A stretch of 64,000 nucleotides of DNA, from positions 1-64,000 of the forward strand of contig JANXET010000006.1 of the NCBI GenBank assembly GCA_025058315.1, written 5' to 3'. Both the position numbers and the translations under genes were made by a program. Source of the DNA: Candidatus Bathyarchaeota archaeon (GTDB taxonomy: Archaea > Thermoproteota > Bathyarchaeia > Bathyarchaeales > Bathycorpusculaceae). A model generated the notes under the pieces. The model made no database searches. It was not told where the DNA came from and saw nothing but the letters and a program-made list of their open reading frames with translations. This document shows, one piece after another, positions 6,104 through 30,126 of this stretch (position 1 is its first letter; each line of letters starts with the position of its first letter).

Positions 6104-8340
<2,237 letters not shown>

Positions 8341-8404
8341 CAAAACCTTCAGCTCCATTCCTTAGAACTCATAAAGTTTTAATTACGCTGTCCCCTCCTT
8401 CACC

Positions 8405-11263: not shown

Positions 11264-12202
11264 GTGGAAAAACTAAAGTTTGCATTTTATTGGGCTGCAA
11301 GTTGCGGAGGATGCGAAATCGCCGTGCTAGACATAAACGAGAAAATATTGGATGTAGCGGCAAAAGCGGACATTGTCTTCTGGCCTGTAGCCCTAGACAT
11401 CAAGTATAAGGATGTTGAAGCTATGCCTGATAAAAGCGTAGATGCCTGCTTCTTCAACGGAGCCATAAGAAACGAGGAAAATGAACGTATGGCTAAACTT
11501 TTAAGACAGAAATCGAAGGTGATGGTGGCGTTTGGCTCATGCGCATGCGACGGCAGCGTTATAGGCCTCGGTAACCTATGGAACCGGGAGAAAATCTTCG
11601 AAAGAGTGTACCTTGAAACTCCTTCAACGAATAATCCGCAGGACGTAACGCCGCAAACCCGCTTTAAGGTTACGCAAGGAGAACTTGAACTTCCAGAATT
11701 CTATGATACGGTTAAAACATTAGTGCAAACTGTTGACGTGGACTACTTTATTTCAGGCTGCCCGCCTCCAGTTCCAAGGATAATCGAGGCTTTAGACAAT
11801 ATTTTAAGCGGTAAACTTCCACATAAAGGCTCAAGTTTTCTCCTTAACAAAGCATTATGCGAAGAATGCCCAAGAGAGAAAAAGGAGAGAAAAATCACTC
11901 AGATAAAAAGAGTTTATGAAATCGAAGATGACTTCAAGACGTGTTTTCTTGATCAGGGCGTTGTCTGCATGGGGCCTGCAACTCGCGGAGGCTGCGGCGC
12001 CCAATGTTTGAATGCGAATATTCCTTGCACCGGATGTGGCGGTCCAGCTCCCCGCGTGTCAGATCAGGGTGCAGCTATGGCGGGCGCTTTCGCATCAATA
12101 ATAGCCAACCCGAAACTCGTCAGGCAGATTGTTGACCCTGTTGGCACATTCTACAAGTATTCTCTTGCCAACTCGATTCTGCAAAGGAGGATTATGAAAT
12201 GA
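11264..12202 (+). CDS. mvhG: F420-non-reducing [NiFe] hydrogenase small subunit, copy 1
   Basis: Electron-transfer subunit that carries iron-sulfur clusters between the NiFe site and MvhD/Hdr. Cysteine motifs include SCGGCE at residues 14-19, GSCACDG, SGCPPP and a C-terminal cluster set with CTGCGGPAP. Length 312 aa fits group 3c hydrogenase small subunits. It starts at GTG 11264, preceded by GGTGAT, and overlaps mvhA by 4 bp. This is the first gene of the operon 11264-17485. It is closely related to the copy at 27665. Confidence 0.92.
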   Translation: MEKLKFAFYWAASCGGCEIAVLDINEKILDVAAKADIVFWPVALDIKYKDVEAMPDKSVDACFFNGAIRNEENERMAKLLRQKSKVMVAFGSCACDGSVIGLGNLWNREKIFERVYLETPSTNNPQDVTPQTRFKVTQGELELPEFYDTVKTLVQTVDVDYFISGCPPPVPRIIEALDNILSGKLPHKGSSFLLNKALCEECPREKKERKITQIKRVYEIEDDFKTCFLDQGVVCMGPATRGGCGAQCLNANIPCTGCGGPAPRVSDQGAAMAGAFASIIANPKLVRQIVDPVGTFYKYSLANSILQRRIMK

Positions 12203-13656
12203 GGGAGATAGTTATAGACCCTGTAACAAGGCTTGAGGGCCATGGCAAGATAACAATATTCTTAGACGATGAAGGCGATGTTGACGAAGCCTATTTTCAG
12301 GTTCCAGAGCTCCGCGGCTTTGAAAAATTCTGCGAGGGCAGAAGGGCTGAAGACCTGCCTATAATAACCACTAGAATATGCGGAGTATGCCCAGTTGCCC
12401 ATCATATGGCGGGCGCTAAAGCCTTAGACGCAGCTTTCAATGTTGAACCTCCAGAACCCGCTAAGAAACTTAGGGAACTCATGTACTGTGGATACTACAT
12501 GTACGATCATACTTTGCACTTCTATTATCTCGGGGGCCCCGACTTCGTGGTGGGCCCAGAAGCGCCGCCGGAGAAACGAAACATTTTAGGCGTAATTGAA
12601 AAGGCTGGACTCGAAATAGGGAGAGAGGTTATAAAACATAGGGCTTATGGACAGAAAATAACCGAAATTATAGGAGGCAAGGCAACCCATCCGGTAAGCG
12701 CGTGTGTTCCAGGAGGAATAGCAAGGCCTATTTCAGAAGATGAAAGGCGAGAAATAGAAAGGATGGTTAGAAGCTTCCTTGAATTCGCCAAGTTTTCTCT
12801 TAAAATTTTCGATGACATAGTTTTGAAAAACATGGACTATGTGAACATGATCAAGAGCGAACCTTACATTATAAAAACCTACTATATGGGAACCGTTGAC
12901 AAAGATAATAAGGTGAACTTCTACGATGGAAGCGTCAGGATTGTTAACCCTGAAGGAAAGGAGCTCGTTAAGTTTCTTCCAAAAGACTACTTAGACGTTA
13001 TAGAGGAGCATGTGGAGCCTTGGACTTATGTTAAGCTTCCATACCTGAAGAAAGTGGGTTGGAAAGGCCTGGTGGATGGCCCTGAGAGCGGGGTATATCG
13101 TGTCGGCCCCCTTGGAAGACTTAACGCTGCAGATGGCATGGCCACGCCGCTGGCTCAAGCAGAGTATGAACGCATGTACACTACCCTAGGCGGAAAACCT
13201 GTTCATAATACTCTCGCTTATCATTGGGCCAGGCTTGTTGAGCTGCTGTATGCGGCTGAACGTGCACTAGAACTTGTAACGGATCCTGAAATAACAAGCA
13301 AGAACCTGCGCAATAAGCCTGGAAAACCCGGTGAAGGTGTTGGAATAGTTGAAGCTGCAAGGGGCACACTTATCCATCATTACCAGCTGGATGAGCACGC
13401 CTTAGCCAAAAAAGTCAACCTTATAGTAGCTACAGTAAACAATGCACCAAGCATATGTCTATCTATTAAAAAAGCTGCTGCAGCCCTCATCAAAAAGGGC
13501 AAGATTACCGATGGAATATTGAACATGGTGGAGATGGCTTTTAGAGCTTACGACCCATGCTTCGGATGTGCAACACACCATGCAATAGGCCAGATGCCCC
13601 TGGAGGTGGAAATTTACGACAGCCAAAAAAGGCTTATTCAAAAATTTGAGAGGTGA
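12199..13656 (+). CDS. mvhA: F420-non-reducing [NiFe] hydrogenase large subunit, copy 1
   Basis: Catalytic subunit that splits or forms H2. The N-terminal L1 motif RICGVCPVAH and C-terminal L2 motif DPCFGCATH supply the four cysteine ligands of the NiFe centre; all are cysteines, with no in-frame TGA. About 25 residues follow the L2 histidine, consistent with a maturation tail for endoprotease removal, although no protease gene lies in this operon (one is at 30127). The length (485 aa) fits group 3c. The ATGA overlap with mvhG and the 6-nt gap to hdrA show one transcript. Confidence 0.93.
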   Translation: MREIVIDPVTRLEGHGKITIFLDDEGDVDEAYFQVPELRGFEKFCEGRRAEDLPIITTRICGVCPVAHHMAGAKALDAAFNVEPPEPAKKLRELMYCGYYMYDHTLHFYYLGGPDFVVGPEAPPEKRNILGVIEKAGLEIGREVIKHRAYGQKITEIIGGKATHPVSACVPGGIARPISEDERREIERMVRSFLEFAKFSLKIFDDIVLKNMDYVNMIKSEPYIIKTYYMGTVDKDNKVNFYDGSVRIVNPEGKELVKFLPKDYLDVIEEHVEPWTYVKLPYLKKVGWKGLVDGPESGVYRVGPLGRLNAADGMATPLAQAEYERMYTTLGGKPVHNTLAYHWARLVELLYAAERALELVTDPEITSKNLRNKPGKPGEGVGIVEAARGTLIHHYQLDEHALAKKVNLIVATVNNAPSICLSIKKAAAALIKKGKITDGILNMVEMAFRAYDPCFGCATHHAIGQMPLEVEIYDSQKRLIQKFER

Positions 13657-13662
13657 GTTGGA

Positions 13663-16065
13663 ATGGAGGCGGCAAAAGTTGGCGTTTTCATAGCTGACTG
13701 TGGAGGACAAATTTCAAAGGTCCTTGACATTGAAGCCATAACAAACTTTGTGAAGAATATTGATGGAGTTGCCTTCGTTGCAAGAAACAGTGAGTTTTGG
13801 CGTGGCCAAGGCCTCCAAATTATAGTTGAAGCCGTCAAAAATAAAAAGATAAATCGGGTCGTTGTCGCTGAAAGTATTCCGAAAATTAGTGAGCTAGCCA
13901 TTACTAAGGCGGTTGAAGAGGCAGGGCTGAACCCATATTTGGTTGAAGTTTTAGACCTGAAAAACCATTGTGCATGGCCCCACCGCGACGCGCCGCTGGA
14001 AGCCACAGAAAAAGCTAAAGCCCTGCTTTTAGCCGCCATTGAAAAGGCCAAGCTTCTTGAGCCTATTGAAAAGGCGGAGTTCCCAGCTGTGAAATCGGTT
14101 CTTGTGATAGGCGGCGGAATAGCCGGGATGCAGGCAGCCGAAGACCTGGCTGAAATGGATTTTCAAGTGTATCTAGTTGAGAGGGAACCATTCCTAGGCG
14201 GTTTAGCCGCTATGGCAGGGCATTTCTTTCCAACAGACGACTGCGCGGTATGCATACAGTCTCCAGATCTCAAAACCATAAGCCGCACATCCCGAAAGTG
14301 TGTCTACCGCTCTGGATTTTCAGAAATTCCAAACCTGAATATTCTAACGAACTCAAGAGTAGTTAAGTTAGAGGGTGCCCCCGGGAACTATAAGGTTACC
14401 GTGGAGCGCAAACCCCGATATGTCAACGAAAAGAAATGTGTAGCATGCGATTTATGCGCTTCAGTCTGTCCAGTGGAAGTTCCAGACGAGTATAATGCAA
14501 AGCTTAAAACGCGCAAAGCCATATACATAAATAAGCCTCTAATTTATCCGCCAGTCTACGTTATAGATGAGGAAGCCTGCAAGTTTCATGACTGCGCTAG
14601 ATGTGTTGAAGTATGTCCTGCAAAGGCTATTGAATTAGACCAGAAACCGGAAAAAGTAACGCTTAATGTGGGCAGCATAATAGTGGCTACAGGCTTTAAG
14701 GAATATGATCCAAGCGTTATAAAAGAGTACCATTACGGCGAATATCCAGACGTTATAACGCATTTGGAACTTGCAAGGATGCTGGATGCTTTTGGACCTA
14801 CAAACGGTGTAATCATCAAGCCTTCAGATAAAAAACCCGCTAAACGTATAGTTTTTATACAATGCGTGGGCTCAAGAGACAGACGATGGAACCCCTACTG
14901 CTCAAGCATATGCTGCATGATATCCCTAAAACATGCAATAATGATTAAGTCAGCTTATCCTGACGCGGATGTTACCATATGCTACATTGACATGAGAACA
15001 GCTGGTCGAGGATATGAAAAATATTATGAGAGAGCTCGTGAGCTCGGGGTGAAATTCGTAAAGGGCAGACCATCCGAAATAGTGCATGACCCATCAGCTA
15101 ACACGTTGATCGTGGAAGTTGAGGATGAGCTATTAAGGAGACTTTTAGAGCTTGAAGCAGACTTGGTGGTTCTCGCCACCGCCATGGTTCCATCGGAAGA
15201 CTCGAAGGAGCTAGCGGGGATCCTAGGCTTAGAACTTGATGAGGACGGCTTCTTTAAGGAGTATAATGCAAAACTCAGACCCACCGAGACCAAGCGCAGG
15301 GGCATATTTATATGCGGAGGCGCAACCTTTCCAAAGGATGTTCCCACAACATCCATCCATTCCCATTCTGCAGCTCTTAAAGCCGCCAAATTCCTTTTGC
15401 ATGGCAGGATAGTTAAGGATTTAAAAGTAGCCTTCGTGAATGAGGAGTACTGTAGCAATTGCCAGATCTGCCCGGTTACATGCCCATATGGCGCCATAAC
15501 TCTCGTACCGAAGGAAAACGGACACTTCGTCGCTAGGGTTTCAGCCCTCATATGCGAGGGATGCGGGATATGCGTTGGCACATGTCCAGTGGGCGCCATC
15601 GAACTTACCCATCTGAGGCAAAACCAAATTCAGACGCAAATACGCGCTCTGCTCTCCATTAATGGAACTTCAAATCCGCTTATACTTGCGATAAGCTGTT
15701 CAGAATGTGGCCATACAGCTGTAGACTCTTCCGGAATGTCGATGATGCGCTACCCGGCGAACGTGAGAGTTCTCAAGGTGCCATGTGCTGGGATGGTGCA
15801 GGTTCAACATATCCTTGAAGCGCTTAAAGCAGGCGCCCAAGGCGTGATGATCGTGGGCTGCAAGCCTGATGGGTGTCATTACGAGGTCGGCAGCGGCAAG
15901 GCTCAAAAGAAGGTTGAAATGGCCAAGATGCTGCTTAAAGCCTACGGGATAGAACCCGAAAGGCTAGAAATGTTCCATTTAATCTACGTGGAGGGTGACA
16001 GGTTCGCAGAGGCCGCCAGAATAATGACTGAGAACTTGAAAAAATTAGGTCCGCTACGGCTTTAA
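13663..16065 (+). CDS. hdrA: Heterodisulfide reductase subunit A fused to MvhD
   Basis: FAD-containing electron-bifurcating hub of the Hdr complex. An N-terminal HdrA domain (about 1-140) is followed by FAD motif VIGGGIAGMQAA near residue 147, an internal ferredoxin-type pair (CVACDLCASVCPVE and CKFHDCARCVEVCP), and a second ferredoxin pair near residues 600-650 (CSNCQICPVTCP, CEGCGICVGTCP). Residues from about 670 to 800 are an MvhD/FlpD [2Fe-2S] domain with SCSEC, PCAGMVQ and GCKPDGCHY. This fusion explains why no separate mvhD is found in the operon. Start ATG 13663 follows the mvhA stop by 6 nt. Confidence 0.92.
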   Translation: MEAAKVGVFIADCGGQISKVLDIEAITNFVKNIDGVAFVARNSEFWRGQGLQIIVEAVKNKKINRVVVAESIPKISELAITKAVEEAGLNPYLVEVLDLKNHCAWPHRDAPLEATEKAKALLLAAIEKAKLLEPIEKAEFPAVKSVLVIGGGIAGMQAAEDLAEMDFQVYLVEREPFLGGLAAMAGHFFPTDDCAVCIQSPDLKTISRTSRKCVYRSGFSEIPNLNILTNSRVVKLEGAPGNYKVTVERKPRYVNEKKCVACDLCASVCPVEVPDEYNAKLKTRKAIYINKPLIYPPVYVIDEEACKFHDCARCVEVCPAKAIELDQKPEKVTLNVGSIIVATGFKEYDPSVIKEYHYGEYPDVITHLELARMLDAFGPTNGVIIKPSDKKPAKRIVFIQCVGSRDRRWNPYCSSICCMISLKHAIMIKSAYPDADVTICYIDMRTAGRGYEKYYERARELGVKFVKGRPSEIVHDPSANTLIVEVEDELLRRLLELEADLVVLATAMVPSEDSKELAGILGLELDEDGFFKEYNAKLRPTETKRRGIFICGGATFPKDVPTTSIHSHSAALKAAKFLLHGRIVKDLKVAFVNEEYCSNCQICPVTCPYGAITLVPKENGHFVARVSALICEGCGICVGTCPVGAIELTHLRQNQIQTQIRALLSINGTSNPLILAISCSECGHTAVDSSGMSMMRYPANVRVLKVPCAGMVQVQHILEALKAGAQGVMIVGCKPDGCHYEVGSGKAQKKVEMAKMLLKAYGIEPERLEMFHLIYVEGDRFAEAARIMTENLKKLGPLRL

Positions 16066-16085
16066 TGGCCTGGAGGGAAACGTGG

Positions 16086-16601
16086 ATGGCTGCTCAAGAA
16101 AGAACATCATCAGACTTTACAGTGGAAATAAAGCAAACTTTGGGCGGAGAATCTATAACACGTTGCTATCAATGCGGGACTTGCGCAAGCAGTTGCCCAG
16201 TAGCCAAAATGACTGATCGTTATAACCCTAGAGAGGTAATTCGGCTGGCTCTTCTGGGCCAAAGAGAAAACGTGCTTGGAAGTGACACAATATGGCTTTG
16301 TGCATCTTGCTACCAATGTCAAGAGCGTTGCCCTCAAGAAGTCGAGATTGCCGACGTAATTTACGCTTTGAGGAACATTGCAATAAGGGAGGGAAAGGTT
16401 CCCAAAATATACGCTGAGTTTGCAGCTACATTGACGAGGGATGGCCGCCTGGTTTCAATGTCTAAATTCCTGGAAAAGAAGAGGATTGAATATGGCCTTC
16501 CCCCATTGAAGCCCACAGGCGTAGAAGCCATCAGGAAGATTCTGTCGGCAACAGGATTCGATAAACTGCCTATATCAGGGATGAAAGGTGAGTCAACTTG
16601 A
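16086..16601 (+). CDS. hdrC: Heterodisulfide reductase subunit C, copy 1
   Basis: Iron-sulfur protein carrying electrons from HdrA to HdrB. It has two [4Fe-4S] motifs, CYQCGTCASSCPVA and CASCYQCQERCPQE. ATG 16086 is preferred because GGAGGG at 16072-16077 is 8 nt upstream; an in-frame ATG at 16065 overlaps the hdrA stop and would add seven residues. The gene overlaps hdrB through TTGA. Length (171 aa) is normal for the soluble HdrC. Confidence 0.92.
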   Translation: MAAQERTSSDFTVEIKQTLGGESITRCYQCGTCASSCPVAKMTDRYNPREVIRLALLGQRENVLGSDTIWLCASCYQCQERCPQEVEIADVIYALRNIAIREGKVPKIYAEFAATLTRDGRLVSMSKFLEKKRIEYGLPPLKPTGVEAIRKILSATGFDKLPISGMKGEST

Positions 16602-17485
16602 CAAGCTATGCGCTTTTCTTAGGATGCACCATACCTGCACGTCAGCCTCATTATGAGCTTTCAGCGAGAAAGGCTATGGCGAAGCTTGGGGTAGAGCTTG
16701 TAGACTTGGAGGGTGTGACCTGCTGCGCGCCTCCTCCCGTGCAATCTATAGATTTGGAGACAAGTTTGATCGTTGCTGCTTATAATATATGTTTAGCTGA
16801 GGAAGCTGATCTAAACATAGTGACTCTCTGTACAGGCTGTTTTGAGTCGTTGGCCGTTGCCAACAATATTCTCAAGGAGAATGTGATGTTGAGGACCCGG
16901 GTAAATGGCGTTCTCTCCTGCTTAGGGAAAGAATTTAAGGGAAAGAAGGAAGTTAGGCATTACCTGCAGGTTTTGCTAAACGACGTGGGCTTAAATTATT
17001 TGAGGCGAAGTGTTGTAAAACCTCTAAAAAGCCTCCGGGTAGCAGCGTTTTCAGGATGCCACTTGCTAAGGCCAAGCAAGCTTTTACGTTTTGATGATCC
17101 TGAACGACCTAGAATTTTCGACACTTTAATTGAAGCTTTAGGCGCAGAAAGTGTATGGTACCGAAACAAGCTTAAGTGCTGCGGCGGCCTCCTTAGAGGC
17201 TACGCAGATGATGTGGCGCTGGCGATAGCGAGGGATAAAATTGTGAACGCTGCCCATGCTGGCGCAGATTGCATAGCAACTCTATGTCCCTTCTGCTTCT
17301 TAACGCTTGATCTGGGGCAAGTGCTGATAAAATCAACATATAAAGAGGAATACGATATGCCTATAATTCATTACACTGAACTGCTCAGTTTAAGCCTAGG
17401 GATAGACCCTAAGGAGTTAGCTCTAGAATTCCATAAAGTGAAAATTGACAAGGTGCTTGACAAGATAGGCTTAAACCTTCCTTAA
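16598..17485 (+). CDS. hdrB: Heterodisulfide reductase subunit B, copy 1
   Basis: Catalytic subunit with two CCG domains, which in methanogens hold non-cubane [4Fe-4S] clusters that reduce the disulfide. The first domain has LGCT, TCCAPPP and LCTGC; the second has SGCH, KCCGG and CPFC. The first domain carries CCAPPP rather than the usual CCG(Y/F)P, though both cysteines are kept. Start TTG 16598 overlaps the hdrC stop (TTGA) and has GGTGAG upstream. The physiological disulfide is unknown since no CoM/CoB pathway is visible. Confidence 0.92.
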   Translation: MTSYALFLGCTIPARQPHYELSARKAMAKLGVELVDLEGVTCCAPPPVQSIDLETSLIVAAYNICLAEEADLNIVTLCTGCFESLAVANNILKENVMLRTRVNGVLSCLGKEFKGKKEVRHYLQVLLNDVGLNYLRRSVVKPLKSLRVAAFSGCHLLRPSKLLRFDDPERPRIFDTLIEALGAESVWYRNKLKCCGGLLRGYADDVALAIARDKIVNAAHAGADCIATLCPFCFLTLDLGQVLIKSTYKEEYDMPIIHYTELLSLSLGIDPKELALEFHKVKIDKVLDKIGLNLP

Positions 17486-17512: not shown

Positions 17513-17959
17513 TTATAAGATGGGTTTCAATTTTGGAATGTCAACTTCAAAGGCCATGTTGTTGTTACACGTCATAACCATGCTATCTATTCGCAACTGG
17601 TTTAGGGGCAAACTTACTTTCCAGCATCGATCTTCCAGGCATAACTGTAAACCATCGACATCTCTTTGAATAGTCACTTTTTGATCTCTGCAACGGCACT
17701 GCATCAGGATTCTAATGTAGTTATCGTCTTCAAAGATGTCTATGAGAGGCTCATCGACATGTGGAAGTGGAATGAAGCATTTGATTTTGATCTTATCTCC
17801 AACGCTTTCCTCTATTGTGTATTTCCTCTTTAGAAGATTCTCTATGGGTTCAACAGGTATATTGCCGTCTTCAGTTTCCTTTTCGCTCTCAGCAAGTTTC
17901 TTAACTAAAACTCTGCAGAAAACATCTATGTTGCGTAGTGCTTCCTCAAAATCGTCCAT
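17513..17959 (-). CDS. Hsp20/alpha-crystallin-like (GvpH-like) protein
   Basis: 148 aa. The segment EPLIDIFEDDNYIRILMQCR followed by beta-strand-rich sequence to FEVDIPK matches the layout of the archaeal Hsp20-like/GvpH fold (EPLVDVFEEDDEI ... NGVLEVRIPK). The N-terminal ~60 residues are helical and acidic. Four cysteines (CRCRD, LCLEDRCW) are unusual for small heat-shock proteins. It is convergent with hdrB and probably monocistronic. The role is unknown; a chaperone-like role is inferred from the fold only. Confidence 0.6.
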   Translation of the reverse strand: MDDFEEALRNIDVFCRVLVKKLAESEKETEDGNIPVEPIENLLKRKYTIEESVGDKIKIKCFIPLPHVDEPLIDIFEDDNYIRILMQCRCRDQKVTIQRDVDGLQLCLEDRCWKVSLPLNQLRIDSMVMTCNNNMAFEVDIPKLKPIL

Positions 17960-18015: not shown

Positions 18016-19107
18016 TTAGCGTAAAATTGACTCATGCCTCTTCTCGGCCAGCAGGGGCACCGTCCTCACATGCTTGATTGTCTTAACGATCTCTTCCACA
18101 TCCTTGTCGGGCTTTTCCAGAGATCTGTTTATGGCTATCTCAGCGATGGATGCCCCAAGATCTGCGATTTTATTTAAACTTGATATCATCGCTCTAAGAT
18201 ATGGGATTTCGGGAAGTTCCGTCATTAATCTGTCAACTTTTTCATATAATAATTTGTGCATTTCTAAAATTCCATTTGCAATTTTGAGGTCTCTGGAAAA
18301 CAGGCAGTCCACGGCTTTCTGAAATATTGCCTGGGTTAAATCGCCGAGGTGTGCGATATCTTTTATGGTTTCGTCTGAAACCTTATTTCTGTATGTGGTG
18401 AAGGCTAGAACCTTCTTGGCGAGGTCTTCACAGTAGTCCGCGATCATCTCAAGAAATTGCAGTATTAAGCGTGTAGCAGGGATGAATATTATTTCTGTTA
18501 CTCCCACATTTTCAGCTACTTCAGGTTTCAACTGTGCTAGCAGAAGCAGTCTGACAGATAAATAATAGATTTTGTCAGCTTCCTCCTCGCGCCTCATAGC
18601 CTCATTCGCTAGTTCTTTATTGCCCTCGACAAGGGCTTGGGTCACCTCAGACAACATCGTTGAGGCTATTATTGCAAGTCTTCGCATGAGCATATCAAGT
18701 TTAAATTTCGTTGGGTCAATGGAGCATTGCAAAAGAATGCTGTTTTGCGTTTCCTCAAGAATCCCGAGACCTATGAGTTTTTGGACTATTCCCCTAACTT
18801 CTTCCACGTAACTTTTTTCTATCCTTTTTGAGGATATGATCTTAATAACGTCGCGTCCAAGAATGTAGCTTCCAACAATTATTCTTTCAAGCATGCCTTT
18901 CTCATTGCATGCATCCGCGTTTATGATGTGCTCTTCTGCCTCTTCCCTTCGCGCCACGTGTCCCGGCATGATTTTTAATGTTCCGTCCCTCTCCTGCATA
19001 ATGAAGATTAGGTCGCCTGGGTTGATGTTGTTACGTTTAGCCCATTCGCTTGGAAGGGAAACCGTGAGAGTAGAATATCCAACCTTCTGAACTTTTCTGC
19101 TCTCCAA
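18016..19107 (-). CDS. AbrB-PhoU domain regulator (phosphate uptake regulator-like)
   Basis: An N-terminal SpoVT/AbrB DNA-binding domain (KVGYSTLTVSLPSEWAKRNN, residues about 5-50) is followed by two helical PhoU-like repeats (REEEADKIYYLSVRLLLLAQ and later). This fusion is common in archaea and is thought to regulate phosphate uptake. I choose TTG 19107 because GGTGAG (19116-19111) is just upstream and conservation starts at ESRKVQKVGYS; the longer form would start at 19158. No pst genes are nearby, so the target is unknown. Confidence 0.82.
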   Translation of the reverse strand: MESRKVQKVGYSTLTVSLPSEWAKRNNINPGDLIFIMQERDGTLKIMPGHVARREEAEEHIINADACNEKGMLERIIVGSYILGRDVIKIISSKRIEKSYVEEVRGIVQKLIGLGILEETQNSILLQCSIDPTKFKLDMLMRRLAIIASTMLSEVTQALVEGNKELANEAMRREEEADKIYYLSVRLLLLAQLKPEVAENVGVTEIIFIPATRLILQFLEMIADYCEDLAKKVLAFTTYRNKVSDETIKDIAHLGDLTQAIFQKAVDCLFSRDLKIANGILEMHKLLYEKVDRLMTELPEIPYLRAMISSLNKIADLGASIAEIAINRSLEKPDKDVEEIVKTIKHVRTVPLLAEKRHESILR

Positions 19108-19219
19108 AATCTCACCATTTATACAGTAAATATTCAAAAATACTAGTACATAAGTCATATTTTTCTTTTTCCATTTGTAAAACAGATATATTCACCAAAA
19201 ATTATTAACCTTAACCATA

Positions 19220-19441
19220 GTGGGAGATTTCAAATTGGAGAAGCCCATCAGGAGTTTGTTAAAGGCGATTTCATGGAGGATTGTGGCGACTCTTACAACG
19301 GTTCTTCTGGTGATTTTATTCAGCAAGGATTGGACCCTTGGAGGCGTAGTTGGAATCTTTGAATTTGTGATGAAGATTTTTGTTTATTATGTTCACGAGA
19401 GACTTTGGAACTTGATTGGTTTTGGCCGAGAACGCGGATGA
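19220..19441 (+). CDS. Small membrane protein, DUF2061 family
   Basis: 73 aa with signature RSLLKAISWRIVATLTT typical of DUF2061, then a hydrophobic segment (VLLVILF) and a second one (GGVVGIFEFVMKIFVYYVHE). Such proteins are predicted membrane proteins with two helices; they are often found near sulfate assimilation genes in bacteria, but none are seen here. Start GTG 19220 or TTG 19235. It is divergent from the PhoU-like gene. Confidence 0.8.
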   Translation: MGDFKLEKPIRSLLKAISWRIVATLTTVLLVILFSKDWTLGGVVGIFEFVMKIFVYYVHERLWNLIGFGRERG

Positions 19442-19512
19442 GTGCTGAAAAATCACAAGCACGCTAAACCGCAATTTATTTATAATATATTCTATTAATG
19501 ATAGTATTTGCA

Positions 19513-19525
19513 AATGGTATATATA
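19513..19525 (+). promoter_or_regulatory. TATA-like element upstream of the RHH-GcvH gene
   Basis: A TATA-like sequence (GGTATATATAG) sits about 50 bp before ATG 19575. The mRNA would carry the strong Shine-Dalgarno AAGGAGGTG at 19558-19566, 8 nt from the start codon. Confidence 0.5.
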
Positions 19526-19574
19526 GTTATGTTTGAGTTAAATATAGCATAGATGAAAAGGAGGTGTATGGTTA

Positions 19575-20162
19575 ATGCCTGAATGGAGAACAATAAGTAT
19601 TAGGCAAGAACTGATTAAGGAAATAGAGAAAGCGCTTGAAACTGGGCGATACAGAAGTGTCTCAGAATTCGTCTCAGAGGCTATACGACTACGCCTTGAA
19701 GAGCTGATGAGGGTTGAGGGTATTTCAGCAACAAAAAGGGAACAGCTTCTGGCAATACCTGAACAGTTACTTTACACGCCTAAACATACATGGGCCCAGA
19801 TAACTCCTGAGGGAAACATCCGCGTCGGCATCTCAGATTATGCACAGAGGCATCTGAAAGGTATAGCTCAAGTGATAGTTGACAATGTCGGTAAAGAGGT
19901 TGCTCAAATGGAGCCTTTCGGCGTCGCCGAGACATGGATGTTCATGTTCGACCTTTACGCGCCTGTGAGCGGCAAAATAGTGAAGGTTAACGAGAAATTG
20001 AAGGAGAAGCCTCAACTTATAAATGAGGACCCCTACAATGAAGGATGGATTGTGGAGATCAAGCCCAAAAATTCCATAACCCTGGAAGAGGAGCTCAAAA
20101 AGCTTCTCAGCTCAAGAGAATATAACAAGTGGGTAAACAAGCTTGAAGGAAGATTCCGTTAA
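19575..20162 (+). CDS. Ribbon-helix-helix protein fused to a GcvH-like domain lacking the lipoyl lysine
   Basis: Residues 5-45 form a ribbon-helix-helix DNA-binding domain (RTISIRQELIKEIEKAL, YRSVSEFVSEAIRLRL). Residues about 62-195 are a glycine cleavage H-like (lipoyl) domain (YTPKHTWAQI, VGISDYAQRHLKGIAQVIV, LYAPVSGKIV, NEDPYNEGWIVEIKP). In GcvH the lipoylated lysine lies in VESVKAxSDLYAPVSG; here the matching stretch is VAETWMFMFDLYAPVSG, so Met122 replaces lysine. It cannot be lipoylated there. It lies between two Hdr operons and is followed by the second one. I infer a transcription regulator using a degenerate H-domain for sensing or assembly. Function is unproven. Confidence 0.88.
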   Translation: MPEWRTISIRQELIKEIEKALETGRYRSVSEFVSEAIRLRLEELMRVEGISATKREQLLAIPEQLLYTPKHTWAQITPEGNIRVGISDYAQRHLKGIAQVIVDNVGKEVAQMEPFGVAETWMFMFDLYAPVSGKIVKVNEKLKEKPQLINEDPYNEGWIVEIKPKNSITLEEELKKLLSSREYNKWVNKLEGRFR

Positions 20163-20242
20163 TAGCATCCATTTCATTATGTGAAATCCCTTCTTATTAT
20201 CCGTTTTATACCATATTTTTACTATTTTTGGTTCAGATGGCT

Positions 20243-20254
20243 TAATATATATGT
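20243..20254 (+). promoter_or_regulatory. TATA box of the second Hdr-Mvh operon
   Basis: TTAATATATATG at 20243-20254 lies about 38 bp before ATG 20291, which places transcription start a few bases before the gene. AGAGGGGCG just before the start codon is a weak ribosome-binding site. Confidence 0.55.
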
Positions 20255-20290
20255 CTAATTATCCAGATTATCTCCAAGAGGGGCGCTGAG

Positions 20291-22003
20291 ATGGAAAAAC
20301 CGCAGCTGAAAATTAGGAAGCTGCCTCCATGTAGGGCGGCATGCCCAGCGCACGTAAATGTTCAGGCGTATGTTTCTCTTATTCAAAGGGGTAAATTTAG
20401 GGAAGCCGTAGAAATAATAAGGAAGGATTTGCCGTTTCCCGCCATTTGTGGAAGGGTCTGCTTCAGCCCATGTGAAGATGCCTGTGCCAGAGTTAACGTT
20501 GACCAGTCCGTGGCAATTCGCGGCCTAAAGAGGCTTGTGGCGGACATTGAGCGTGAGCAGGGACGAGTAAAGGGCGAGCCGGTTCCCAAAAAATACAGCG
20601 AAAAAGTCGCCATCATCGGGGCCGGCCCCGCCGGTCTAACTGCTGCTTATGAGCTTGCAAAAATGGGTTATCCCGTAACTGTTTTTGAAAGAATGCCTGA
20701 ACCTGGGGGAATGATGCGCTACGGCATACCTAACTTTCGATTAGAAAAATTCGTTGTAGCAAACGAAATTGCATATATCCAGGATATAGGGGTTGAAATT
20801 AAAACTGGTGTTGAATTTGGGAAAGACATAACTCTTGAGGGTCTCAGAGAGGAAGGCTACAAGGCCTTTTTCATAGCTATAGGTGCTCAGTTAGGAATGA
20901 AGCTCAACGTGCCCGGCGAGGATCTTGAGGGAGTGATAAGCGCTGTAGACTTCCTTAGGGCTTTAGCCACTGGGAAGCCATTGAGAGTTGGTGAACGGGT
21001 AGCTGTGATAGGCGGTGGCAACACTGCGATGGACGCTGCCAGAACAGCTAAAAAACTAGGCGCCAAGGAGGTTATAGTGCTTTATAGACGCTCCCGCGAG
21101 GAAATGCCTGCTCATCCTCACGAGGTGGAATTAGCTGAAAAGGATGGAGTGAAGTTCTATTTCTTGGTTGCGCCGAAAAGGATTATTGGCGAAAACGGCA
21201 AGGTCAAAGCCATTGAGTGTATTAGAATGCGCCTAAGTGAGCCGGACGAATCTGGTAGAAGGCGTCCTGTTCCAATAAGTTTCTCAGAGCATCAGTATGA
21301 GGTTGACATGGTTATCCCGGCGATAGGGCAGGTGGTTGAAACTTCAGCTCTACCTCAGGAGTTGTTAAACAAGGATAAAGGCGGGATGCTGATAAAGTAT
21401 GACCCTCAAACGTTGGAGACTAGAATTCCAGGCGTTTTTGTTGGAGGCGACTTGGCGACAGGCCCCGCCAGCATTATTGAGGCTGTAGGCGCTGGGAAGC
21501 GTGCAGCCATTTCCATTCACCTGTACTTAAGGGGCCGAGATCCGAAAGAGGGATTGGATGAGACAATTGAGGAGGTCACCTGGGTTAAGGATTGGAATAT
21601 GGTTAATAAGAAAGCGCGCCGATACGACGCTCCAATAGAAAAGCCCCATTTAAGCCTTGAAGAGGCTATGGAGTATCTGATGCAGCTTAAGAAGAAAGCT
21701 AGGTTTGAGGCTTTCCGTTGTCTAGGCTGCGGGCCGTGCGCTGAATGCTTAGCAGGCGTGGAGCTCTGCGAAGGCGATAAAGCTGTTGTTGATGAAGTTA
21801 AATGCGTAGGCTGCAATGTATGCGCTGTTATCTGCCCTGTCGGCGCCATCAAGAAGAATGATCGTGGCGTAGCTCAGGTTAATGAGGACCTATGCAAGGG
21901 ATGTGGACTTTGTGCAGCAAGATGTCCAGAGAACGCAATAGCAATGAGGAAGCTATCGGCTGAAGCGATTATGGCCATGATTTCCACAGCATTGGAGAGG
22001 TGA
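20291..22003 (+). CDS. GltD-like FAD/NAD(P) oxidoreductase with C-terminal 2x[4Fe-4S] ferredoxin domain
   Basis: 570 aa. The N-terminal iron-sulfur domain (CRAACPAHVNVQAY, CGRVCFSPCEDAC) is followed by FAD motif GAGPAGLTAAY, NAD(P) motif GGGNTAMDAAR and C-terminal GVFVGGDLATG. Residues about 470-555 add CLGCGPCAEC, CVGCNVCAVICPVG and CKGCGLCAARCPEN, a ferredoxin-like tail with two [4Fe-4S] sites. The family moves electrons between NAD(P)H and iron-sulfur partners. As first gene of the operon it could link NAD(P)H to the Hdr-Mvh complex, which is an inference from context. It overlaps the next gene. Confidence 0.88.
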   Translation: MEKPQLKIRKLPPCRAACPAHVNVQAYVSLIQRGKFREAVEIIRKDLPFPAICGRVCFSPCEDACARVNVDQSVAIRGLKRLVADIEREQGRVKGEPVPKKYSEKVAIIGAGPAGLTAAYELAKMGYPVTVFERMPEPGGMMRYGIPNFRLEKFVVANEIAYIQDIGVEIKTGVEFGKDITLEGLREEGYKAFFIAIGAQLGMKLNVPGEDLEGVISAVDFLRALATGKPLRVGERVAVIGGGNTAMDAARTAKKLGAKEVIVLYRRSREEMPAHPHEVELAEKDGVKFYFLVAPKRIIGENGKVKAIECIRMRLSEPDESGRRRPVPISFSEHQYEVDMVIPAIGQVVETSALPQELLNKDKGGMLIKYDPQTLETRIPGVFVGGDLATGPASIIEAVGAGKRAAISIHLYLRGRDPKEGLDETIEEVTWVKDWNMVNKKARRYDAPIEKPHLSLEEAMEYLMQLKKKARFEAFRCLGCGPCAECLAGVELCEGDKAVVDEVKCVGCNVCAVICPVGAIKKNDRGVAQVNEDLCKGCGLCAARCPENAIAMRKLSAEAIMAMISTALER

Positions 22004-22764
22004 TGGAGATGGAGGCTGAGCCACCTAAAATAGTTTGTTTCATGTGTAATTGGGTCTTTTGTGGAGAGGAACTGCAGGTTCCATACAATTTTAACGTTTT
22101 CAGAGTTCCATGCATAGGCCGCATGGATCCAGTCCTAATTTTAGAGACATTTGCAAATGGTGCAGACGGCGTCATGCTTGTAGGATGTAAACCGGCAGAC
22201 TGCCACTTTGTTGACGGCAATTTGCATGCGGAACGCGCAGTGAAAATGTTAAAGAAACTTTTAAATTTAGCCGGCCTCGGACATGGACGTCTAAAAATCA
22301 TTTTATTCTCGCCATTGGAGGATGGGAACTTTGATAAGTATGCTAAGGAATTCTCAGAGGAAATATGGGTTCTTGGATCCTCTCCGCTTAAAAATGCCGA
22401 GTTGGCTCCGAAAATAACCGCTAATCTTGCAGCTGCTAAAAATGCAGCATCCGCCTTCAGACTTAGAGTGTTGCTGGGTAGGGAGGAAGAGTTGACAGAA
22501 TTAGAAAATGCCTATGGCGAAAGGATCTCAGAGAAGGATTATGACGCCCTACTGGATGATATCGTTAACGCTGAGTTCGTACGATACAAAATCCATTATC
22601 TCACCAGGGATAAGCCGCTCTCTGTTAGGCAGTTGGCTGAAATGCTCGGATTGAAACCATCAATAGTTCTCAGGCATATTACGAATATGCGGAGGAAGGG
22701 AATGATAAGCATGTACAGGGTTGAAGGTAACACTCCACTTTACAAGGCCCTGGAGGTGCATTAA
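22003..22764 (+). CDS. MvhD-like [2Fe-2S] protein fused to a winged helix-turn-helix
   Basis: Residues about 8-135 are MvhD/FlpD-like (PCIGRMDPVLILETFANGAD, LVGCKPADCHF). The first cysteine motif reads CNWVFC instead of the usual CNWC, so cluster coordination may differ. Residues about 165-250 end in a winged-helix domain (LSVRQLAEMLGLKPSIVLRH, then RRKGMISMYRVEGNTPLY), like ArsR-type regulators. ATG 22003 overlaps the upstream TGA; ATG 22009 has the better distance to GGAGAGG. I infer either an Hdr subunit with a DNA-binding tail or a redox-responsive operon regulator. I do not know this fusion from a characterised protein. Confidence 0.85.
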   Translation: MEMEAEPPKIVCFMCNWVFCGEELQVPYNFNVFRVPCIGRMDPVLILETFANGADGVMLVGCKPADCHFVDGNLHAERAVKMLKKLLNLAGLGHGRLKIILFSPLEDGNFDKYAKEFSEEIWVLGSSPLKNAELAPKITANLAAAKNAASAFRLRVLLGREEELTELENAYGERISEKDYDALLDDIVNAEFVRYKIHYLTRDKPLSVRQLAEMLGLKPSIVLRHITNMRRKGMISMYRVEGNTPLYKALEVH

Positions 22765-22765
22765 A

Positions 22766-25700
22766 ATGGCTGATGGAAAGGTTGGAGCCGTTTTAGTTGT
22801 TGGCGGCGGCGTTGCAGGTATACAGGCTTCGCTGGACTTGGCTGATTCAGGCTTCAAGGTTTACCTGCTGGATGAAGCTCCAAGCATCGGTGGAGTAATG
22901 GCTCAGCTTGATAAGACGTTTCCGACAAACGATTGTTCCATGTGCATTTTGGCGCCTAAGCTTGTTGCAGCGGGTAGACACTCCAACATCACGCTGATAA
23001 CTAACGCTGAAGTTATGGCTGTGGATGGTGAACCTGGAAACTTCGAAGTTAAGATTCTGAAAAGAAGCCGCTACATAAATGAGGAAAAATGTAACGGATG
23101 CGGGCTATGCGCCCAGAAGTGCCCAGTTGAAGCCATAGACACATATAATAAAGGCTTAACTGACAGAAGCGCAATATACGTGGAGTTCCCGCAGGCTGTA
23201 CCGCTAAGATTTAAGATAGACCGTGAAAAGTGCATAGGCTGCAGAACATGCCAGGAAGTTTGTAAGGCTAACGCGGTGGAATATGACCAGAAGGACACCG
23301 AAGTTGTTTTGAATGTAGGCTCAATAATACTTGCCCCCGGATTTGAACCCTTTGACGCGCGTCTCAAAAGCGAGTACGGCTATGGCCGCTACCAGAATGT
23401 GGTCACAAGCATGGAGTTTGAGCGTATCCTGAACGCTTCAGGCCCCTACGGTGGAGTTGTTTTAAGACCTTCAGACGGCGAGATTCCGCGAAAAATAGCC
23501 TTTGTGCAGTGTGTAGGTTCTCGTGATGCCCAAGTTGGAAACATCTACTGCTCTGCAGCGTGCTGCATGTATGGAATAAAGGAAGCCATAATAGCCAAAG
23601 AGCATGTGCCAACCAAGCTTGACTGCACAATGTTCTATATGGACATTCGAGCTTATGGAAAGGAGTTCGACGCATATTACAAGCGTGCCCAGGAGGAGTA
23701 CAGCATAAGATTTGTAAGATCAAGGGTTGCCCGTATAACTGAAGATCCCTCAACTGGTAACCTACTCGTTCATTATGTGGGTGAGGATGAAACACCAAGA
23801 GTTGAAGAGTTCGATATGGTGGTTTTATCAACAGGGATGAAGCCGCCTAAAAATTTTGAGAAGCTTGCTAAGGTGTTTGGAATAAAGATCAATAAGTACG
23901 GGTTCTGCGAGACAGATCCATTTACACCGCTGGAAACCTCAAAACCAGGCATATATGTATGTGGCGCCTTCAACTCCCCAAAGGATATTCCTGAAAGCGT
24001 CGCCCAGGCAAGCGGAGCAGCAGCTAAAGCTATGGCGGTAATAGCTTCAGGGAGAGGTAAACTAGTAGCTGCTAAAGAGTATCCGCCAGAAATCGATGTA
24101 ACCTCGGAGGAGCCTCGCATTGGAGTTTTCATATGCCACTGCGGCATTAACATAGGTGGGTTCGTGAATGTTCCGGAAGTTGTGGAATATGCCAAGAGTC
24201 TTCCAAATGTAGTTTATGCTGAAGGCAACCTCTACACTTGCTCAGACGATACCCAAAAGAGGATAAGGGAGAAAATTCAAGAGTTCCGTTTAAACCGGGT
24301 GGTAGTGGCCTCATGTACTCCTAGAACTCATGAACCATTATTCAGAGAAACACTACGCGAGGCAGGTTTAAATCCCTACCTTTTCGAGATGGCGAACATC
24401 AGAGATCAATGCAGCTGGGTGCATATGCATCAGCCCAAAGAAGCAACAGAGAAAGCTAAAGATCTCGTAAGGTCTGTTGTTGCCAAAGCCCGCCTTTTAA
24501 CACCCCTCAAAAACCCAACAGTGAACGTTACACCAGTCGCCCTTATAATAGGCGGCGGCGTTTCCGGAATGACAGCTGCTCTTGAACTTGCTGCTCAGGG
24601 ATTCGAAGTTCACTTGGTGGAGAAGGAGAAGGAACTCGGAGGCCACCTTAGAAAAATTTACTACACACTTGAAGGCATAGACCCTCAAAAGTTCCTGAAT
24701 AATCTTGTAAAATCAGTTATGGAAAATGACAGAATACATGTTTACTTAGGCGCCGAGGTAACTGAGGTAAGCGGGTTCGTGGGGAATTTCAAGTCAAAAA
24801 TACTTCACGAAGGTAAAGAGAAACTTGTGGAGCATGGGGTTGTAATAGTCGCTGTTGGCGCAACAGAATATCAGCCAAAGGAATATTTATACGGGCAGGA
24901 TCCGCGGGTGTTGACGCAGCATGAACTTGAAGAGAAACTGGCCAAAGGCGAGTTTAACGCTAAAAGAATCGTTATGATACAATGCGTCGGCGCAAGGAAT
25001 GAGGAAAGGCCTAACTGTTCAAGAATCTGCTGCGGCCAAGCTGTGAAAAACGCTCTGAAAATTAAAGATGTGAATCCTGAAGCTGAAGTTTACGTTTTAT
25101 ACAAGGACATAAGGACTTATGGTTTCATGGAAGAGTATTATCGTGAAGCTTCTGAGAAAGGTGTGCTATTCATAAACTATACTGATGCCTGCAAACCAAA
25201 AGTTTCAAACGAGAACGGCGTGTTAAAGGTGTCATTCTGGGAGCCAGTGCTGAAGCAGGAAGTTGAAATAGAACCTGACCTTGTAATCCTAAGCGCGGCT
25301 ACAATACCTAACCCTGACAACAAACATGTCGCTGAAATGCTTAAAGTACCCTTAACCAAGGAAGGCTTCTTCCTTGAGGCTCACATGAAGCTTAGGCCAG
25401 TTGACTTCCAAACTGACGGGGTTTTCCTATGTGGAATGGCGCATTCGCCGAAGTTTATAGACGAATGTATCGCGCAAGCATGCGCAGCCGCCGCCAGAGC
25501 TGCAACAATCCTGTCGAAGAAGTACCTTGAGATGGAAGGAATAGTGGCAAACGTGGATGAAGATTTATGTAGCGGATGCAGAATTTGTGAATCTCTATGC
25601 CCGTACGGCGCGATTGAGATGACTGAAAAGGCTGGAAAAGTCGTGGCGCATGTCATTGAAGCCCTATGCAAGGGCTGCGGGGTATGCGGAACTGCATGTC

Positions 25701-25789
25701 CAACCAAAGCAATAGTGCTTGGACACTTCACAACGGAGGAAATCCTTGCTCAAGTTAGAGCTGTACTGAAGGAGATGATTGCGGAATGA
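22766..25789 (+). CDS. hdrA: Double HdrA: two heterodisulfide reductase A modules in one chain
   Basis: About 1007 aa, longer than the usual 650. Module 1 has FAD motif [38 protein letters not shown] and the HdrA motif QCVGSRD. Near residue 450 an HdrA N-terminal domain appears ([14 protein letters not shown]). Module 2 has FAD motif [12 protein letters not shown] and QCVGARNEE. The C terminus has two ferredoxin motifs ([28 protein letters not shown]). ATG 22766 is fixed by GGAGGTG at 22751-22757. Two FAD sites in one chain may give a more complex bifurcation path than HdrA copy 1. It overlaps mvhD by ATGA. Confidence 0.93.
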
Positions 25790-26229
25790 GCGCCCACGAG
25801 AAGAGGGAATTTGAGCCTAAAATTGTTGGTTTCCTATGTAACTGGTGTTCCTATGCAGGCGCAGATCTGGCGGGAGTAAGCCGTATCCAGTATCCGCCAA
25901 ACATACGTGTAATCCGAGTTATGTGCAGTGGAAGAATAGATCCCGTGTTTATTTTAGAAGCCTTCAAGAACGGTGCTGACGGCGTCCTAGTGTCCGGATG
26001 CCATCTTCCTTCAGATTGCCACTATCTAAGCGGGAATTTCAAGGCACTTAGGAGGGTAACTCTATTAAGGAGAGTTATAAAAGAATTTGGCATAGAGCCT
26101 GAAAGGCTCCGGCTGGAATGGATCTCTGCAAGTGAAGGGGATAAGTTTGCGGCTGTCGTACGGGACATGGTTGAGCAGATTAAAAAGCTTGGGCCAAGTC
26201 CATTAAAAATGAAGGAGGGTGAAGAATGA
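25786..26229 (+). CDS. mvhD: Hydrogenase iron-sulfur subunit MvhD
   Basis: 147 aa. Links the hydrogenase to HdrA through a [2Fe-2S] cluster. Conserved cysteines are in [19 protein letters not shown] and [11 protein letters not shown]. It overlaps both neighbours through ATGA junctions. It is a stand-alone version of the domain that is fused to HdrA in the first operon. Confidence 0.93.
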
Positions 26230-26780
26230 GCCAGACGCAGGAACAGGTTCCCTCTGTCATAAAAGCCGAGGAGCTTAATTCAAAATTTAAGTACGAAATC
26301 AGCAAGATGCCCGGTGCAGAAAAGATCATGGCTTGTTTCCAGTGTGGAACATGCACAGCCGACTGTCCCATCGCCAGGTACAGCCAATTCTATAGGCCTC
26401 GAAGGATAGCCCGCATGGTTCAGCTTGGACTGAAGGAAAGGCTGCTCTCAGATGAAGCATTGTGGCTGTGCTCCTCCTGCTTCACATGCGTAGATCATTG
26501 TCCGCAGGGAGTAGAAATAGCGGGTATAGTGAGGGTTCTGCGTAACATGGCCGTAGCTGATAAGGCTGTTCTGCCGCTTGTCTACAAGGAGTTAGCGACG
26601 AATCTCATGAAAAATGGTTACGTGTATGAAATTCCCGAGTCAAGACGACAGAAAAGAGTTGAGATGGGTTTACCGCCCCTTCCAAAGCCAAACTTGAATG
26701 ACATTTTGAAAATCTTCGAAGTAACTGGTTCCCTAAAATTAATTGAGAAAGTTAAAACCATCGAGAAGGTGAGGAGCTGA
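26226..26780 (+). CDS. hdrC: Heterodisulfide reductase subunit C, copy 2
   Basis: 184 aa iron-sulfur subunit with two [4Fe-4S] motifs ([28 protein letters not shown]). Start ATG 26226 overlaps the mvhD stop; a GGAGGGTG ribosome-binding site lies just upstream. The gene joins hdrB through TGATG. It is paralogous to the gene at 16086, with a longer N terminus. Confidence 0.93.
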
Positions 26781-27658
26781 TGGCTAATCCCAAATATCTA
26801 ATTTTCACAGGCTGCGTCATCCCGTATAGGCTTTCAAGCTATGAAATTTCAGCTAGAAAGGTTCTCTCTAAACTAGGCGTAGAGCTTATGGAGATGCCTG
26901 ACTTTAATTGCTGCGGATATCCCATGGACGTAATAAATCATGACTTAATGTTGACGCTTGCAGCTAGAAATCTATGCATAGCTGAAAAGGAGGGCTTGAA
27001 CATAATGACTCTGTGCAATGGATGCTTCTGCAGCCTTAACGAGACAAATAAAGCGTTGAAGGAGGACAGGAAACTGCGTGAGAAAATCAACGGTTACCTT
27101 AAAGAGGTGGGAATGGAGTTTAAGGGCACCATAGAAGTTAAGCACCTCATATACGTGCTTTCAGAGGATTTAGGCTACGAGAAAATAAAAAGCGCTGTTG
27201 TAAAGCCGCTGAGCAAGCTTAAGGTAGCCCAGCATAGTGGATGTCACGTTGTTAGACCTGCAAAGTACGTTGGACGAGATGATCCTGAGAATCCCCACAC
27301 CCTGAAGAACCTGATTAGGCTTACAGGCGCCGAATGCCTAGACTATGTTGATGAAGCTGAATGCTGCGGAAACCCAATCATCGGAGTTAACGAGGAGGTG
27401 CCTTTCAGCATGGCTAAGGAAAAGCTTGACCATATACGTGCCGCCGGCGCTCAGGCGCTTATAACCATATGCCCATTCTGCCATATTATGTTTGACCTTA
27501 ATCAGCCGAGAATAGAACGGGCGTTCAACGAGAAATATGGGCTTCCGGTGCTGCATTACACTCAGCTTCTCGGCTTAGCCATGGGCTTCACCCCTGAGGA
27601 ACTTGCGGTTAATGAACTGCGGGTTAAACCCCTGGAAATTTTAAACTTGATAAGGTGA
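26780..27658 (+). CDS. hdrB: Heterodisulfide reductase subunit B, copy 2
   Basis: 292 aa with two canonical CCG domains: FTGCVIP, NCCGYP, LCNGC and then SGCH, ECCGNP, CPFC. Unlike copy 1, the first domain keeps the standard CCGYP. The residue set for two non-cubane clusters appears complete. ATG 26780 overlaps the hdrC stop. The substrate disulfide is not indicated by any neighbour. Confidence 0.93.
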   Translation: MANPKYLIFTGCVIPYRLSSYEISARKVLSKLGVELMEMPDFNCCGYPMDVINHDLMLTLAARNLCIAEKEGLNIMTLCNGCFCSLNETNKALKEDRKLREKINGYLKEVGMEFKGTIEVKHLIYVLSEDLGYEKIKSAVVKPLSKLKVAQHSGCHVVRPAKYVGRDDPENPHTLKNLIRLTGAECLDYVDEAECCGNPIIGVNEEVPFSMAKEKLDHIRAAGAQALITICPFCHIMFDLNQPRIERAFNEKYGLPVLHYTQLLGLAMGFTPEELAVNELRVKPLEILNLIR

Positions 27659-27664
27659 AATGTT

Positions 27665-28648
27665 ATGTCGAAAGAAAAATTGAAAATAGCATTCTATTGG
27701 GCGGCAAGCTGCGGAGGCTGCGAAATAGCAGTCCTGGATATAAACGAGAAAATCCTTGATGTGGTGCAAATCGCAGACATAGTTTTCTGGCCAGTAGCAA
27801 TGGATGTGAAATATAAAGACGTTGAGAACATGCCTGACAAGCACATAGACATCTGCTTCTTTAACGGTGGAATCCGAAACAGCGAGCAAGAATACATGGC
27901 GAAACTTCTGAGGCAGAAATCAAAAGTGCTTGTGGCTTACGGAGCATGTGCACATTTAGGCGGCGTCCCTGGACTAGCAAACTTGTCCAGCAAGAAAGAA
28001 ATCTTCGAGAAAGTTTACCTGTCAACACCGTCAACAGTGAATTCTGAAGGTGTAGTGCCTCAGCCCAAGACAAAAGTCGGGGAAGGCGAGTTAGAAATTC
28101 CAGAATTTTACGACACTGTAAGAACCCTAGATCAAACAGTAGATGTTGATTATTATGTGCCTGGATGCCCGCCTGCAGTGGAACGCACATTATATGCCAT
28201 AGAAGCCTTGACAAAGGATTCGCCGCCGCCGAAGGGCACAGTGCTGGCTCCGCCAAAATCAGTCTGCGATGAATGTCCGAGAAAGAAGGAAAGCAAGAAA
28301 GTTTCGAATGTTTACCGTGTTTACGAGAAGATACCTGAGCCTGAAAAATGCTTGCTTGAGCAAGGCTTCATCTGTATGGGGCCTGCAACCCGAGGAGGCT
28401 GCGGTGCAAGATGCTTAAAGGCGAACATGCCGTGCACCGGTTGTGGCGGGCCATGCCCCAACTCGCCTGAGCAAGGCGCCGCCATGATAAGTGCCCTAGC
28501 TTCAATACTTGGATTAGAAGAGGAAAAGGAAATGTACACTGAGGAAAAAGTGGAAAAACTTGTAGATCAGATAAAGGATCCCATCGGCACATTCTACATG
28601 TACGCGTTACCAGCCTCCATCCTCAGGCGGAGGGTGATTCGTCAATGA
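27665..28648 (+). CDS. mvhG: F420-non-reducing [NiFe] hydrogenase small subunit, copy 2
   Basis: 327 aa, close paralogue of the 11264 gene (shared AFYWAASCGGCEIAVLDINE). Cysteine motifs SCGGCE, GACAHLGG, GCPPAVE and CTGCGGPCPN are present. In the second cysteine region this copy has ACAH where copy 1 has SCACDG. It is 6 nt after hdrB, preceded by a GGTGAA ribosome-binding site, and overlaps mvhA by ATGA. Confidence 0.93.
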   Translation: MSKEKLKIAFYWAASCGGCEIAVLDINEKILDVVQIADIVFWPVAMDVKYKDVENMPDKHIDICFFNGGIRNSEQEYMAKLLRQKSKVLVAYGACAHLGGVPGLANLSSKKEIFEKVYLSTPSTVNSEGVVPQPKTKVGEGELEIPEFYDTVRTLDQTVDVDYYVPGCPPAVERTLYAIEALTKDSPPPKGTVLAPPKSVCDECPRKKESKKVSNVYRVYEKIPEPEKCLLEQGFICMGPATRGGCGARCLKANMPCTGCGGPCPNSPEQGAAMISALASILGLEEEKEMYTEEKVEKLVDQIKDPIGTFYMYALPASILRRRVIRQ

Positions 28649-30099: not shown

Positions 30100-30126
30100 G
30101 CTCCCATTTCCTCCTTTATTTTGTTA

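Follow-up and report, generated by a model that had tools for sequence, protein, structure and literature searches.

A GcvH-like domain with methionine at the lipoyl-lysine site, joined to a probable ribbon-helix-helix domain in Bathyarchaeia

Our analysis confirmed that the protein encoded at positions 19575-20162 of the window, the whole 64,000-nucleotide stretch of Candidatus Bathyarchaeota DNA analysed here, has a clear GcvH fold with methionine at the lipoyl-lysine site. This domain follows a probable ribbon-helix-helix (RHH) part, and the protein, hereafter RHH-H, represents a separate and conserved family whose lysine appears to have been replaced, rather than merely lost, in what was apparently a single event. 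A divergent AbrB-PhoU gene accompanies that for RHH-H. We consider the chances about even that RHH-H is a one-component autoregulator of itself and AbrB-PhoU, with the H domain as its docking or ligand input.

An H-protein fold with an altered lipoyl hairpin

The RHH-H gene, on the plus strand, encodes 195 amino acids from an ATG start preceded by a Shine-Dalgarno sequence. Its features are as follows.

19556..19566, plus strand: Shine-Dalgarno sequence AAAAGGAGGTG of the RHH-H gene (sequence; kept in the upstream alignment)
19575..19712, plus strand: RHH/CopG-like N-terminal domain, residues 1-46 (MPEWRTISIRQELIKEIEKALETGRYRSVSEFVSEAIRLRLEEL..) (sub-threshold RHH_1 match; matches of relatives)
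19752..20144, plus strand: GcvH-like domain, residues 60-190 (Pfam GCV_H 1.9e-31; model matches H-proteins in the PDB)
19929..19949, plus strand: hairpin ETWMFMF, residues 119-125, in place of ESVKAVS (alignment, motif counts, comparison with canonical GcvH)
19938-19940, plus strand: Met122 codon, at the lipoyl-lysine position (alignment, comparison with canonical GcvH)

The H-like domain with Met122 in place of the lysine, which an earlier note had read from the sequence, was borne out by several approaches. Pfam GCV_H covers residues 65-188 (E 1.9e-31) and NCBIfam GcvH matches at 2.4e-37, with a score under the TIGR00527 equivalog cut-off. In an AlphaFold2 monomer model built from the RHH-H family alignment (pLDDT 82), residues 60-190 superpose on solved H-proteins, best on 3ab9 (TM(target) 0.93, E 2e-13), and the lipoyl hairpin is intact, with strands at 114-120 and 124-128 and Met122 at the turn. 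Within W121-M122-F123-M124-F125, Met122 aligns with the lysine of the ESVKAVSDL motif that the canonical GcvH of the same genome (L002) carries. RHH-H thus resembles GcvH (PF01597/TIGR00527) in its fold, its hairpin and its C-terminal DPYGEGW region, with 28-41% identity to solved H-proteins over the domain, but differs in having neither the lipoyl lysine nor the Glu after the conserved His (HEW has become HTW), in its N-terminal RHH part, and in a genome without detected GDC-P.

That RHH-H is nevertheless a functional H-protein, or an LbpA-like lipoate carrier that uses another residue, would fit its complete H fold and the lipoate-ligase-type protein encoded in the window genome. Against this stand the absence of a hairpin lysine from every copy, the HEW-to-HTW change and the lack of any cysteine in the 195 residues. 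The same genome, moreover, encodes a separate canonical GcvH with the lysine (ESVKA), and GDC-P was not found there (PF02347, 0 matches in G000, 94% complete, with positive controls). We regard a carrier function as extremely improbable. ESVKA-type motifs are retained in the canonical GcvH copies read in RHH-H and related genomes.

The earlier note pointed to GcvH-like proteins as lipoate carriers of some Hdr systems. LbpA of the sHdr sulfur oxidizers is indeed a GcvH-like protein encoded next to Hdr-type genes, but all 95 LbpA proteins keep the lipoyl lysine and most have two cysteines (PMC6067878), so that they offer no precedent for a lysine-less form; RHH-H, by comparison, has neither lysine nor cysteines, carries a DNA-binding-type domain and is associated with a different Hdr type. 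As a separate observation, the lysine-bearing canonical GcvH (L002, 115-1890) adjoins a pyridine-nucleotide-disulfide oxidoreductase-like gene in this genome without detected GDC-P, which raises the question of whether it carries lipoate for a purpose other than glycine cleavage.

The assignment of the N terminus to the RHH domains, also made in the earlier note, stood in part. RHH_1 is matched at E<=0.01 by 15 of the 33 RHH-H relatives (best 4.3e-6), and there are weak matches to ParD, CdrS and NikR models as well as to NikR structures (E 0.02). The window protein itself, however, stays under the cut-off (17.7 bits against 20.5), and the monomer model, of low confidence in this part, has helices at 3-22 and 29-47 and no strand. 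Because the model lacks the ribbon, the assignment rests on sequence; it is weaker than that of the H domain but consistent, and the N terminus is probably of RHH/CopG type. In such an arrangement, RHH-H would resemble the NikR-type RHH one-component regulators, which combine an N-terminal RHH domain with a C-terminal input-like domain; in NikR the C terminus is a metal-binding domain of its own, whereas in RHH-H it is an H-protein fold. A search of the open literature, with subscription papers and preprints outside its scope, found no RHH-GcvH protein and no lysine-less GcvH regulator, and RHH-H may represent a one-component regulator whose input domain is without a precedent that we could find.

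Distribution and conservation of the family

A search for RHH-GcvH architectures with position 122 aligned, as the earlier note had suggested, recovered a family with lysine in no copy. RHH-H occurs in 41 of 257 Bathyarchaeia genomes, with 38 full-length and 3 split or truncated copies, and all 41 genomes fall in four families of one order. A further copy is found in one Jingweiarchaeum MAG (L048), and a peptide-pattern scan covering a single genome for each GTDB species, which more divergent fusions could escape, detected no further full-length relatives with more than 30% identity. The Jingweiarchaeum copy (7995-8591), accompanied by AbrB-PhoU in a DPANN genome in which no HdrA ortholog was found, reflects either transfer or mis-binning.

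The conservation of RHH-H goes far beyond chance. G116, E119 and W121, among other residues, are invariant across 33 aligned relatives, and 48 of the 51 scored hairpin motifs are of the ETW/ESW type (ETWMF, ETWWF, ESWWF and close forms), the remaining three having a short insertion ahead of the Trp; none of the 51 has a hairpin lysine. When the motif columns were removed, the H domains of RHH-H still split from all lysine-bearing GcvH on a 100/99 branch. A sequencing error or a local mutation as the source of the lysine change is excluded by the conserved family and the tree.

These data also bear on the possibility that RHH-H acts as a structural DNA binder or in the manner of an antitoxin and that its H fold is an inert oligomerization scaffold that senses nothing. 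ParD antitoxins are indeed among the closest RHH models. Nonetheless, a toxin-like partner is not kept, whereas the AbrB-PhoU neighbor is, and the hairpin at the former lysine site is among the most conserved positions, although an inert scaffold would need no conserved hairpin motif; we consider this explanation quite improbable. The exchange of a reactive lysine for a fixed aromatic-hydrophobic finger instead suggests binding rather than chemistry, in keeping with an H domain that serves as signal input. The suggestion that RHH-H reads thiols is not supported for the protein itself, since direct thiol sensing is unlikely in the absence of cysteines.

Several related proteins were observed alongside the family. 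The strict ETW-H pattern is present in 16 of 398 genomes of the phylum, every one in the same order, which rules out, for this strict pattern, ETW-H proteins elsewhere in the phylum. Within that order, ETW-type H proteins without an RHH part are encoded at L055 (7917-8411) and L136 (238-723), with a truncated copy in L150, and these are possibly free signal domains. In one clade, RHH-H is duplicated in tandem, copy A bearing ETWMF and copy B ETWWF, and near position 12260 of L093 (minus strand), close to the tandem genes, lies a gene for an RHH protein whose C terminus differs and contains Cys.

AbrB-PhoU and hydrogenase-Hdr genes around RHH-H

The neighboring genes in the window are the following.

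11264..17485, plus strand: upstream hydrogenase-Hdr operon, the second of two paralogs (MvhG, MvhA, HdrA-FlpD, HdrC, HdrB)
17513..17959, minus strand: small conserved protein behind AbrB-PhoU, Hsp20-like by eye, no Pfam match (synteny)
18016..19158, minus strand: divergent AbrB/MazE-PhoU protein (Pfam PhoU 3.4e-19, MazE 2.4e-8; synteny, co-occurrence)
19220..19441, plus strand: DUF2061 small membrane protein (Pfam DUF2061 3.7e-17; contexts)
20291..22003, plus strand: GltD-like flavoprotein, which opens the downstream operon (Pfam Pyr_redox_2 3.5e-34, Fer4_20)
22000..22764, plus strand: fusion of a FlpD/MvhD domain with an ArsR-type winged helix (Pfam FlpD 1.5e-29, HTH_5 5.9e-6)
22721..25789, plus strand: double HdrA-like flavo-iron-sulfur protein
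25786..30636, plus strand: MvhD, HdrC, HdrB, MvhG, MvhA and a maturation protease (MvhD by Pfam; others from ORF sequences and synteny)

Wherever upstream sequence is available, AbrB-PhoU lies divergently beside RHH-H, save in G088, in which a remnant only is visible. Its ortholog co-occurs with RHH-H across 61 genomes with two exceptions, G022 and G066, which have AbrB-PhoU at a contig end. The DUF2061 gene sits between the two in the window and in seven other loci. Two paralogous hydrogenase-Hdr operons (11264-17485 and 20291-30636) flank RHH-H and AbrB-PhoU, an arrangement common among relatives.

The downstream operon has the order GltD-FlpD/HTH-HdrA-MvhD-HdrC-HdrB-MvhG-MvhA. Counting one locus per genome among about 40 informative genomes, with G145 masked, we found GltD-FlpD/HTH-HdrA downstream of RHH-H in 30, across four families; a TauE/SafE permease intervenes in two of the 30. 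The Hdr-Mvh link drawn in the earlier note therefore holds widely but is not obligatory. In seven genomes of family f9, TauE/SafE (Pfam 2.6e-46 in L046) and a small protein replace GltD-FlpD/HTH-HdrA, and neither a full-length FlpD/HTH nor an HdrA2 ortholog was found in the five f9 genomes checked. The Jingweiarchaeum and G199 loci have neither GltD-Hdr nor TauE/SafE after RHH-H, and in G030 the FlpD/HTH-HdrA operon is present with RHH-H not detected. Given the exceptions in f9, Jingweiarchaeum and G030, the link is strong but separable. The TauE/SafE genes of f9 (L046, 8638-10081; L148, 4999-6308; L149, 5497-6459) are followed in several genomes by the small protein of about 124 amino acids, and TauE/SafE and DUF2061 as neighbors suggest a theme of sulfur compounds.

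This neighborhood invites the alternative that RHH-H regulates GltD-Hdr-Mvh directly, with the GltD promoter as the target of its RHH domain and with an H domain that docks onto either lipoate enzymes or the GltD/HdrA complex. The prevalence of the downstream Hdr operon speaks for it, as does the short gap between RHH-H and GltD, about 80-120 nt, in the tandem-paralog clade (in family f1 the gap is about 130 nt and has its own TATA-like element). Further support comes from some Desulfobacterales, in which independent lysine-less H domains, fused to a NuoG-like protein or a Cys-rich N terminus, are encoded beside NuoEF, HdrA::GltD::HdrA and MvhD. The f9, Jingweiarchaeum and G030 exceptions speak against it, however, and in a wider Desulfobacterales sample HdrA lies within flanks of about 1.5 kb in only 4 of 33 loci, so that docking of lysine-less H domains onto Hdr-type complexes is supported but not established. 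With the promoter evidence given below, we judge direct regulation of the Hdr operon unlikely.

The Desulfobacterales proteins (L089, 7224-13903; partly L090, L082 and L088) form a large family whose members often come in tandem pairs, with a weak match to the GcvH-related model NF045810. They share with RHH-H the H fold minus its lysine and, in some cases, proximity to HdrA, GltD or MvhD, but their N termini are not RHH, their identity to RHH-H is about 25%, and they have no ETW motif; their origin is likely separate. In a distinct Myxococcota clade (L070-L076), stand-alone GcvH proteins have Ser, Thr or Ala in place of the lipoyl lysine.

A duplicated palindrome and the proposed regulation

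The region upstream of RHH-H is kept between families, and one block stands out in the window.

19482..19529, plus strand: conserved RHH-H promoter block (upstream alignment, element scan)

In relatives, a 14-bp palindrome, ATAGTATTTACTAT, recurs 5' of both RHH-H and AbrB-PhoU; the window version, ATAGTATTTGCAAATG at 19501-19516, is degenerate by comparison. Both promoters carry the same block (RTAGTATTTACTAYTA...TATATGCATTA) where a long distance separates the two genes. Local alignment of the two promoters scored 31 in L039 (shuffle maximum 18), 23 in L042 (maximum 16), 19 in L040 (maximum 17) and 16 in L102 (maximum 15), the last two likewise with 0/500 shuffles. The similarity is weaker in L038, L107 and L109, and the scores did not exceed shuffles in the window, L037 and L101. 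The AbrB-PhoU copy overlaps a possible TATA box, but TATA boxes are insufficient as the sole cause of conservation, as the element is kept at RHH-H where DUF2061 separates the promoters.

Exact matches to the palindrome WTRGTAWWTACYAY number 20 across 13 RHH-H genomes, with 15 in the RHH-H/AbrB-PhoU intergenic region, and four in seven genomes without RHH-H; G003 has no exact match. These counts provide no independent probability, because the pattern searched for came from these very promoters and the species are related, which makes the enrichment partly circular. Their value lies in how few the other sites are, with none at the GltD/Hdr promoter in any scanned locus. The earlier proposal of 20162-20291 as operator is accordingly not supported, the RHH-H and AbrB-PhoU promoters being the place of the only duplicated palindromic element found; the same observation weighs against direct regulation of GltD-Hdr-Mvh from the GltD promoter.

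We propose a model in which RHH-H controls its own gene and AbrB-PhoU, since the palindrome lies between these two genes. An RHH dimer would bind DNA, with the 14-bp palindrome as its most likely direct site, and the lipoate-free H fold would act as a docking or ligand-binding domain through the ETW(M/W)F hairpin. AbrB-PhoU possibly joins RHH-H in this regulation, and the palindrome could instead be bound by AbrB-PhoU. Where spacing is short, GltD-Hdr-Mvh (or TauE/SafE in other families) may be controlled by read-through from the RHH-H promoter; alternatively, the products of these downstream genes may be the source of the signal to RHH-H.

If the model is right, RHH-H would be a rare documented case in which a swinging-arm carrier domain gave up its cofactor site and took over signal input for a gene regulator. 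A more specific version, which we think unlikely, is that the carrier fold has been turned into a transcription-factor sensor whose lipoyl hairpin, now an aromatic finger for docking, senses the occupancy or redox state of an electron-bifurcating complex of the Hdr/GltD type; other lysine-less H domains, in Desulfobacterales, may share this role. Jointly with the MvhD-winged-helix fusion of the same operon, the sensor would let the cell adjust hydrogenase-Hdr expression to the state of the enzyme itself. The motif W121-M122-F123, the 14-bp candidate operator and the candidate partners AbrB-PhoU, GltD, HdrA, MvhD/HTH and TauE/SafE are leads with which the regulation of H2 metabolism and electron bifurcation in uncultured Bathyarchaeia could be tested in a surrogate host.

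The FlpD/winged-helix protein (22000-22764) is kept in 31 aligned copies, with the cysteines of its iron-sulfur domain mostly retained; it is a second fusion of electron-transfer and DNA-binding domains at the locus and perhaps the better redox sensor. A separate block, TCAAACTTGATTTAGGTGGCTTAATATAT, conserved in family f1 only, lies at the GltD promoter between the RHH-H stop and the GltD start (L035, L099, L101) and may be bound by another regulator, for instance this FlpD-winged-helix protein.
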